Assembly: GCA_014805025.1 (NCBI GenBank)
Contig: JAAUYR010000021.1
Location: forward strand, 1-64,000
Source: Clostridia bacterium
Lineage (GTDB): Bacteria; Bacillota; Clostridia; Christensenellales; Borkfalkiaceae
DNA: 64,000 nucleotides
Direction of reading: 5' to 3'
The notes beneath the pieces are model-generated. The model worked only from the letters and a program-made list of their open reading frames with translations, did not search any database and was not told the origin of the DNA. Positions 8,423 to 27,211 of this stretch are shown here, in pieces (within the stretch, counting starts at the first letter, position 1; each line of letters starts with the position of its first letter). The position numbers were made by a program, and so were the translations under genes.

Positions 8423-8528
8423 TTTAAAACGCTCCTTTTGTTTTATTTAATTATATTATATCATAATATAAAAATATGTCAACAATAATACAAAAAATGT
8501 CAATAAAATAGCATATTTTCGCGATTGT

Positions 8529-8777: not shown

Positions 8778-8833
8778 AATAAGCTCCTCAAATATTTTAT
8801 TATATTATATCACTCGCATATAAAATGTCAAAA

Positions 8834-9034
8834 TTAAATTTTGCGACCTATTAATTCGTCTAAACTTATTCCGTAACAGTCAGCAAGCTTTACACAAAAA
8901 TCAATACTGGGGATAACATCTCCCCTTTCCCACCTTGTTATATTTTGATGTGATGTCGATAATTTTTTTGCTAACTCCATTACTGAAAGTCCAGCAAGCT
9001 CCCTTTGCTCTTTTAAAGCTTCTCCATAATTCAT
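8834..9034 (-). CDS. XRE-family HTH transcriptional regulator
   Basis: MNYGEALKEQRELAGLSVMELAKKLSTSHQNITRWERGDVIPSIDFCVKLADCYGISLDELIG; start corrected to 9034 (RBS GAGAGGC). Confidence 0.9.
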   Translation of the reverse strand: MNYGEALKEQRELAGLSVMELAKKLSTSHQNITRWERGDVIPSIDFCVKLADCYGISLDELIGRKI

Positions 9035-9080
9035 AAAACTGCCTCTCATATATTTTTAGCACAAATTTGTACCAAATAAC

Positions 9081-9109
9081 TTGACAGGTACATAAATGTA
9101 CTTTATACT
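9081..9109 (+). promoter_or_regulatory. Promoter with operator palindrome in the spacer
   Basis: TTGACA (9081-9086), N17 containing GTACATAAATGTAC (9088-9101), TATACT (9104-9109). Confidence 0.85.
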
Positions 9110-9137
9110 ATGTACAAATATGTATTTGGAGGTGCTT

Positions 9138-9410
9138 ATGACTAATTCAATTTTATCAATGTTACTTGACGGTGGCAACGGGTTACACGAAGTTATAAAA
9201 GACAGCAAACAGTATATTGATTTGCAAAACGAAATAGACAAGATAATTACAAGATGCACCCCCAACCTAACGGAAGAGGAACGGCATAAAATTTTGTTCG
9301 ACATAGGACTTTTGCACTGCAAAATGGAGCTTGAAAAAACGACCCTCTTTTTCAAAGAGGGCGTAAAAACAGCGTTCAAGCTTTTTGTTGAAACCTGTAC
9401 TTACATATAA
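9138..9410 (+). CDS. Small helical protein, DUF6809-like
   Basis: MTNSILSMLLDGGNG...LTEEERHKILFDIGLLHCKMELEKTTLFFKEGVKTAFKLFVE; RBS GGAGGTG before ATG 9138; the longer ORF start at 9096 overlaps the promoter. Confidence 0.7.
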   Translation: MTNSILSMLLDGGNGLHEVIKDSKQYIDLQNEIDKIITRCTPNLTEEERHKILFDIGLLHCKMELEKTTLFFKEGVKTAFKLFVETCTYI

Positions 9411-9411
9411 A

Positions 9412-9436
9412 AAAGCGGCGCAAATTGCGCCGCTTT
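9412..9436. terminator. Bidirectional terminator
   Basis: AAAGCGGCGCAAATTGCGCCGCTTT. Confidence 0.85.
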
Positions 9437-10932: not shown

Positions 10933-11553
10933 TTACTTGGAGTACAGCTCGACAATCATATGCTCTGCAATCTGACTGTCAATATCTTCTCTTTCGGGAT
11001 TTGCTAAAATCTTTCCCTGCAATTTCTCGGGGTCGAATTCGAGCCACTTGGGGGTGTTTACCTTGCTGGCTTTAACCGCCTCGAAATATTTATTGGAAGT
11101 TTTGCTCTCTTTAACGGTGATAATATCGCCCGCTTTAACTATATAGGAGGGTATGTTTACCTTTTTGCCGTTCACAAGGAAATGACCGTGGTTTACAAGC
11201 TGTCTTGCCTGCGACCTGCTTGCGCCGACGCCCATACGGAAAATAACGTTATCCAGTCTGCGCTCCAACAGCGAAAGCATGTTTTCACCGGTGATGCCCT
11301 TCATTCTGTCGGCCTTTTCGTAGTAAGCGCGGAACTGACCTTCCTGTACGCCGTAAATTCTCTTAACCTTCTGTTTTTCTCTCAGCTGCTTGCCGTATTC
11401 GGAAACCTTCTTGCGTGAAAGTCCGTGCGCACCGGGAGGCGTAGGTCTTTTTTCAAACGGGCACTTGCCGTTATAACATTTTTCGCCCTTTAAGAACAGC
11501 TTTCCGCCCTCTCTTCTGCACAGGCGGCATTTTGCTTCTCTGTAAGTTGCCAT
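10933..11553 (-). CDS. rpsD: 30S ribosomal protein S4
   Basis: [18 protein letters not shown]...[34 protein letters not shown]. Confidence 0.96.
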
Positions 11554-11567
11554 AACTTTCTACCTCC

Positions 11568-11969
11568 TTATACTCTGCGGCGCTTAGGCGGCCTGCATCC
11601 GTTGTGGGGAATGGGAGACACGTCGGAAATCAAAGTAATTTCCACGTCGCACGCGCCAATTGCGCGGATAGCCGACTCTCTGCCCGCACCCGGTCCTTTT
11701 ACGTAAACTTCAACCGAGCGAAGTCCGTGTTCTTTTGCTGCTTTTACAGCCGTTTCGGTTGCCTGCTGAGCGGCAAACGGCGTGCCCTTTCTCGAACCCT
11801 TGAAGCCGAGGCTGCCTGCCGACGACCAGCTTATTGCGTTGCCCTGTGCGTCGGTTACGGTTACGAGCGTGTTGTTGAAGGAGGACTGAATGTGTACCTG
11901 ACCTCTGTCAACCTTTTTAAGCTCTCTGCGTTTTCTTGTAACGGTTTGCTTTTTCTGTTGCTGTGCCAT
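11568..11969 (-). CDS. rpsK: 30S ribosomal protein S11
   Basis: [43 protein letters not shown]. Confidence 0.97.
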
Positions 11970-11980
11970 ATACTACCTCC

Positions 11981-26631: not shown

Positions 26632-26904
26632 TTAAGTGTAATTATCTTTTGAAACTTCCATACCGAGTAATACGCCGCTTTTAAAACCAACCCTATATGC
26701 GGTCTTTTCCGTCTCTAATTCAAGCTCTCCGTATAATGTATTAATTCTCGACAACATTTCTTTTTGCTTTTCATTTAAGGTACTGTCAAGCTTATCGCAA
26801 AGGTCTAATAATTCTTGTTTGTCTTGATTATACTTCTCCGTATTGCTTATCCCCTCGCATACGTCGCATTCATAATAATAAAAATCTTCTATTATTGAAG
26901 TCAT
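26632..26904 (-). CDS. Small helical protein, DUF6809-like
   Basis: MTSIIEDFYYYECDVCEG...KLDSTLNEKQKEMLSRINTLYGELELETEKTAYRVGFKSGVLLGMEV; RBS AAAGGAG, start corrected to 26904. Confidence 0.75.
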   Translation of the reverse strand: MTSIIEDFYYYECDVCEGISNTEKYNQDKQELLDLCDKLDSTLNEKQKEMLSRINTLYGELELETEKTAYRVGFKSGVLLGMEVSKDNYT

Positions 26905-26940
26905 AATTCTAAACTCCTTTATCAAAATATTGATATGGGC

Positions 26941-26969
26941 ATTATAGTATCAAGATTTTGATAAGTCAA
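26941..26969 (-). promoter_or_regulatory. Promoter with operator palindrome filling the spacer
   Basis: Reverse strand TTGACT (26969-26964), TATCAAAATCTTGATA + C (26963-26947), TATAAT (26946-26941); further operators at 26920-26935 and about 26979-26992. Confidence 0.85.
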
Positions 26970-27007
26970 TTACTTTAAGCAATATTTTGATATTTTGTAG
27001 TAGAACT

Positions 27008-27211
27008 ATGTACGGCAAAGAAATTAAACAAATACGTAAATCTTTAAATTTTACGCAAACACAAGTTGCACAGGCGACGGGCATTCCGCAAAATACTTTA
27101 AGTTGGATTGAGGCCGATAAAGGTATTCCAAATATACAGCAGTGTGTTTTGTTGGCCAACTTTTACGGTGTTACCCTTGAAGAATTGCTTGGTCTTGAAT
27201 TAAATAAATAA
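27008..27211 (+). CDS. XRE-family HTH transcriptional regulator
   Basis: MYGKEIKQIRKSLNFTQTQVAQATGIPQNTLSWIEADKGIPNIQQCVLLANFYGVTLEELLGLELNK. Confidence 0.9.
   Translation: MYGKEIKQIRKSLNFTQTQVAQATGIPQNTLSWIEADKGIPNIQQCVLLANFYGVTLEELLGLELNK

Follow-up and report, generated by a model that had tools for sequence, protein, structure and literature searches.

A predicted autoregulated repressor switch with exchangeable small cargo in an uncultured clade of Clostridia

We conclude, with a probability of roughly 85% and on the strength of comparative sequence analysis, that two divergent gene pairs in a 64,000-nucleotide stretch of contig JAAUYR010000021.1 from a Clostridia bacterium (the window) are stand-alone, autoregulated repressor switches of the phage immunity kind (CI/RstR-like) with exchangeable cargo. 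Comparison among genomes establishes the linkage of repressor and cargo, the promoter geometry, the association of operator with recognition helix, the shuffling of modules and their presence or absence at a locus. That the XRE protein represses the cargo promoter from a palindrome in its spacer, and regulates itself, is very likely.

In module 1, an XRE ORF and the ORF of a 90-aa helical protein are divergent (start codons are predicted). The sequence-only reading had proposed this arrangement, with a palindrome inside a TTGACA-N17-TATACT promoter, and genes, promoter and palindrome all lie where it placed them. The predicted features of module 1 are:

8834–9034, minus strand: gene for an HTH-only XRE repressor of 66 aa (HTH_3, 6.5e-15; NCBIfam RstR, 7.1e-14, below its cut-off)
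9059–9072, no strand: XRE-side operator GCACAAATTTGTAC, upstream of the XRE gene, 10/14 identical to the central operator
9081–9109, plus strand: promoter of the helical-protein gene (TTGACA at 9081–9086, 17 nt, TATACT at 9104–9109)
9088–9101, no strand: central operator GTACATAAATGTAC, inside the −35/−10 spacer, with a single genomic occurrence
9112–9125, no strand: leader operator GTACAAATATGTAT, 11/14 identical to the central operator
9138–9410, plus strand: gene for the DUF6809-like 90-aa helical cargo protein (iterated profile, profile comparison and AlphaFold2 model)
9412–9436, plus strand: intrinsic terminator that closes the module and faces rplQ

The promoter matches the consensus at 11 of 12 positions, and the helical-protein gene has a Shine–Dalgarno sequence, GGAGG, at 9128–9132. 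The central operator is a perfect 14-nt palindrome whose whole length falls within the spacer, and the related flanking sites suspected from the sequence proved real. Allowing up to one mismatch, GTACATAAATGTAC occurs once in the 1.32-Mb genome, so the module 1 XRE most likely controls a single locus.

Module 2 (26632–27211) had been described as a second copy. The common layout was borne out, but the two XREs are 31% and the two DUF6809 proteins 21% identical, and the operator of module 2 (TATCAAnnnnTTGATA) is unlike that of module 1. Judged by these comparisons, the modules are not copies; they belong to a diversified family in which operators differ. The predicted features of module 2 are:

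26632–26904, minus strand: gene for the DUF6809 cargo protein of 90 aa (PF20648, 6.6e-14, above cut-off)
26920–26935, no strand: leader operator TATCAATATTTTGATA, 15/16 identical to the module 2 central operator
26941–26969, minus strand: cargo promoter, TTGACT-17-TATAAT
26948–26963, no strand: central operator (TATCAAAATCTTGATA on the minus strand), inside the TTGACT-17-TATAAT spacer
26977–26992, no strand: XRE-side operator TATCAAAATATTGCTT, 13/16 identical to the module 2 central operator
27008–27211, plus strand: XRE repressor gene, 67 aa (HTH_3, 4.4e-15)

Both repressors belong to the XRE/HTH_3 family, with scores of 55.4 and 55.9 bits against a cut-off of 23, and that of module 1 consists of a single HTH_3 domain. 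The top NCBIfam match of the latter is the RstR family (NF041951), at 52 bits against a cut-off of 80 and with an alignment that covers profile positions 1–65 of 108, short of full length. Among the cargo proteins, that of module 2 is a DUF6809 member (PF20648; 52.9 bits, gathering cut-off 27). The DUF6809 identity proposed for the 90-aa protein of module 1 held in part: its Pfam score is 14.5 bits, below the same cut-off, and it is reached by an iterated profile of DUF6809 relatives (5.8e-19) and by hhalign profile comparison (96% over 84 columns), which indicates full-length homology. The label DUF6809-like holds by virtue of these two matches, which make the protein a divergent relative of the family.

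The AlphaFold2 model of the module 1 protein (pLDDT 92) has helices at residues 5–11, 16–19, 24–39 and 46–88, and Foldseek gave no match with E ≤ 0.001; DUF6809 itself is predicted to be helical, with a 43-residue C-terminal helix (AlphaFold2 model). A conserved FKxGFKxG motif in DUF6809 suggests a role in helix packing. Our literature search on PF20648, a family without known function, gave no paper. Neither the 90-aa protein nor a typical DUF6809 had tblastn matches in phages or plasmids, and no DUF6809 cargo was present in viral contigs; on these blanks, and with weak PHROG matches only, mobile or phage carriage of the cargo was rejected. A defence-family identity was likewise rejected, since PADLOC gave single weak matches only. 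Our best guess is that DUF6809 would act as a conditionally released effector; a toxin or an antirepressor is possible.

To place the two modules in context, we rely on 93 metagenome-assembled genomes of one genus; coming from one genus, the modules are not fully independent. DUF6809 matches are present in 50 of the 93 genomes, with up to ten per genome, and at these loci profiles seeded by the window proteins gave 111 distinct DUF6809-like genes. The conserved XRE linkage on which the sequence-only reading depended is present: a divergent XRE gene lies directly upstream of 77 of the 101 DUF6809-like genes with upstream sequence (76 by profile and L095 by eye). The other 24 are solo genes with enough upstream sequence, and 10 genes cut by contig ends were left out of the 101. 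Outside the genus, about 3 of 22 DUF6809 loci have a divergent XRE. A clade of near-identical solo genes (L023, L024, L027, L033 and L090; MQSKLIKAFF...) includes several whose upstream sequences are similar and repeat-like when translated.

The modules share one geometry, TTGAC-(17 nt palindrome)-TATAAT, with the operator repeated towards the XRE gene and, in some modules, in the leader as well; the intergenic spacers are mostly 80–110 nt long. In the 69 modules with a clear promoter, six symmetric spacer positions are complementary in 55–70% of cases, against 25–38% expected from composition. Perfect 6/6 arms occur between the −35 and −10 boxes in 33/69 modules, compared with 6.3% of dinucleotide shuffles (we count 6/6 arms only, the 5/6 threshold having been dropped because 45% of shuffles reach it). 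There are 56 distinct half-sites among the 69 modules. Exact repeats of a module's own half-site are found on the XRE side in 59% of modules and in the leader in 22%, where swapped half-sites give 3.7% and 1.7%, respectively; some modules have an imperfect palindrome or no clear second operator. None of the 24 solo genes combines a strong promoter with a palindrome. Counting short XRE genes by genome, a strong divergent promoter accompanies 11 of 17 in the window's genome, 21 of 25 in G004 and 0 of 3 in G002, which is without DUF6809; the spacer palindrome is a perfect 6/6 in six of the 11 and in 13 of the 21. Operators within one genome are mostly different, yet not beyond chance (p 0.76), and selection for differing operators inside a genome was rejected.

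The operator follows the recognition helix of the repressor. In XRE pairs with 60–80% framework identity, operator similarity is 0.80 when the recognition helix is the same (n=24) and 0.42 when it differs (n=22), which ties the XRE to the palindrome by comparison alone. Together with the linkage, this association supports the earlier proposal of a local XRE repressor acting on the helical-protein promoter, and the occurrence of the operator in the promoter region of the XRE gene also supports the autoregulation that had been suggested as possible. In many XRE genes the ATG lies ~6 nt past the end of a −10-like box and has no strong Shine–Dalgarno sequence ahead of it, which suggests leaderless mRNA for many of them (L001–L127); the pattern is not clear in the window modules. 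The lambda cI transcript from pRM is leaderless.

Switch and cargo have been shuffled against each other. Among 61 non-orthologous modules, XRE similarity is uncorrelated with DUF6809 similarity (Mantel r 0.043, p 0.19), and co-evolution of the two was rejected for this set. The XRE of L013 is 81–82% identical to those of L049, L071 and L074, with a shared operator and a DUF6809 protein just 19% identical; in the reverse case, DUF6809 proteins are 45–60% identical while their XREs are 15–45% identical. Homology between shuffled modules often covers the XRE and the promoter and breaks off at the end of the −10 box or a little downstream, the cargo beyond being unrelated. DNA homology ends at the −10 box or ≤1 nt from it in L081/L075, L186/L013, L151/L042, L138/L124 and L137/L108, and the breakpoint has this position across cargo types too (L186, L151, L138, L137); not all breakpoints are sharp (L219, L225, L226). 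Downstream of the switch stand other DUF6809 genes, a four-cysteine protein or a lipoprotein. Operator TACCCC..GGGGTA precedes DUF6809 cargo in L011 and four-cysteine cargo in L198, and TATTCA..TGAATA does so in L037 and L206, respectively. On the DUF6809 tree, the link to an XRE changes at least 11 times, and intact solo genes are scattered. From these alignments we conclude that the XRE gene, operators and promoter are the moving unit. The idea of a repeated two-gene cassette was right about recurrent linkage, but DUF6809 is not the only partner: the unit is joined to other cargo as well.

The four-cysteine proteins form a second recurrent cargo family, found at L198, L206, L208, L218, L219 and L225 (all G004) and at L149 (G000:C31). 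They have 83–97 aa, are helical at the C-terminus and contain four cysteines in a zinc-ribbon-like pattern, C..C..Y/F..GxC; the members scanned had no Pfam family above cut-off. In the window's genome, small XRE-like genes at L144 (G000:C25) and L155 (G000:C41) are each divergent from a near-identical short membrane peptide (MKKKILLFLLVGVLLFVTVIVI...), possibly toxin-like.

Two rival readings make the cargo a partner of the repressor. The modules could be toxin–antitoxin systems, with DUF6809 as toxin and the XRE as transcriptional (or binding) antitoxin: they are compact two-gene units, patchily distributed and with as many as 10 DUF6809 matches per genome, their strong promoter is held under an operator, and the module is missing at the same locus in relatives. 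Yet intact solo DUF6809 genes persist without an XRE across the tree (forcing the label changes counted above), the pairs do not co-evolve, lipoprotein genes and other cargo are placed under the same switch, and no convincing defence or toxin–antitoxin family match was found. A cognate, co-evolving pair whose toxin is not kept without its antitoxin, as in type II systems, is not what the modules present, and we consider this reading unlikely. Alternatively, DUF6809 could bind the XRE and lift repression, giving a bistable switch like SinR/SinI or the Gifsy repressor/antirepressor pairs. A small helical protein beside a small XRE without a sensor domain would suit such a pair, and the missing pairwise co-evolution is compatible with it, since antirepressors can act on repressors having different operators (PMC3121763). 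The mismatched identities at L013 and in the reverse case, the unrelated cargo found in the same position and the solo DUF6809 genes that persist without an XRE speak against it, and we regard it as doubtful.

Module 1 lies between a small membrane protein gene and rplQ. In relatives, the order is YfcE–M74–M82–rplQ (G008) or YfcE–M74–rplQ (G007), and module 1 is absent from both, so it behaves as a compact gain or loss. The gene content of the YfcE–rplQ interval varies among relatives. In G009, a related XRE with an intact palindromic divergent promoter (L241) lies beside rplQ in the orientation opposite to module 1, with no recognisable cargo ORF at the locus. Near rplQ in the window, each of two small membrane-protein genes is preceded by a perfect TTGACA-16-TATAAT promoter whose −10 box has a TG in front of it (8455–8482 and 8804–8831, minus strand). 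The position of module 1 between core genes and outside a prophage would suit a reading without a phage link, in which an ordinary regulator acts locally on a small housekeeping protein, as would the commonness of XRE regulators and a phage match that, beyond inoviruses, is general only. This is quite unlikely given the patchy presence across the genus (50/93 genomes), the absence of the module at the same locus in relatives, the diversified operators, the shuffled cargo and the same layout in inovirus genomes.

In the exchangeable-cargo switch that we favour, the XRE, presumably as a dimer, would sit on the palindrome between −35 and −10, block RNA polymerase and keep the cargo silent. The module 1 XRE would be expected to bind within 9059–9125 with a preference for GTACATNNATGTAC. 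Through the operator copies in its promoter region and the leader, the XRE would set its own level, perhaps with cooperative binding. The evolving and moving unit would be the repressor gene with its operators and promoter, which recombination at or just past the −10 box would join to different small cargo, most often DUF6809; as operator and recognition helix diversify together, modules in one cell would be mostly independent. Cargo would be released when the repressor is titrated or inactivated by an invading element with matching operators, by an antirepressor or by chance. A further idea, speculative and rather unlikely, is a genus-wide tripwire arsenal of orthogonal phage-type immunity switches, in which each XRE would block phages with the same operator, and titration by incoming phage DNA or a phage antirepressor would release a small effector (DUF6809, the four-cysteine protein or another) against the infection.

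Collectively, these modules offer a repressor–operator–promoter unit reused in plug-in fashion with small genes that are unrelated to one another, and the −10 box is where the breakpoint can be seen. With their one geometry, the half-sites amount to a natural catalogue that pairs XRE recognition helices with operators and can be used directly for testing a recognition code and as a source of orthogonal parts. The modules also provide a testable lead on DUF6809 function and connect chromosomal switches with inovirus immunity in this clade.

The closest phage look-alike that we found is, by sequence and layout, a filamentous-phage immunity switch. Among phage proteins, the module 1 XRE is matched best by the repressor of gut inovirus PQ006181.1, at 60.6% identity. 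The promoter divergent from that repressor has the sequence TTGACA-agtcacgtatgtgtgact-TATAAT and is followed by another operator copy in the leader, and PQ006164.1 is built in the same way. Of the 93 genomes, 7 contain inovirus loci (Zot), and at one of these loci (L278) an XRE has a perfect spacer palindrome. The window's genome gave no Zot (PF05707) match. Module operators had 36 matches in viral contigs, none adjoining an XRE, so we treat them as chance.

Among known systems, the lambda CI/Cro switch has divergent promoters, three operators and a repressor controlling both sides, a likeness to the modules; the module XREs differ in being HTH-only, without a cleavage domain, and the partner in the window modules is not a Cro. 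Elsewhere in the window's genome, at L139 (G000:C30, around 11505–11975), an XRE with three TCCCTAATTAGGGA-type operators stands opposite a second small XRE that resembles Cro; no prophage is evident around this CI/Cro-like pair. The XRE regulator of ICEBs1 (PDB 7t8i) is the sole solved-structure match of the XRE by sequence (1.1e-8), but it is part of an integrative element, and no element genes surround the modules. Unlike the phage repressors of the inovirus kind, the module XRE has no C-terminal extension. Pf4r of Pseudomonas phage Pf4 is an inovirus repressor conferring superinfection immunity (PMC8402870), but its binding sites are non-palindromic and its nearest relative is the P2 repressor C. 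CTXphi RstR comes in many alleles, each repressing its own promoter only and conferring allele-specific immunity (PMC11509585), and several coexist in one strain (PMC11509585, PMC3323433). Like the modules, the RstR/rstA region has a small XRE-type repressor divergent from the controlled gene, with several intergenic operators, and the modules show the RstR/CI-type hallmark, a divergent repressor together with one operator that is repeated several times over the two promoters. Unlike CTXphi, module 1 is without surrounding phage genes, and the modules would control small exchangeable cargo rather than replication.
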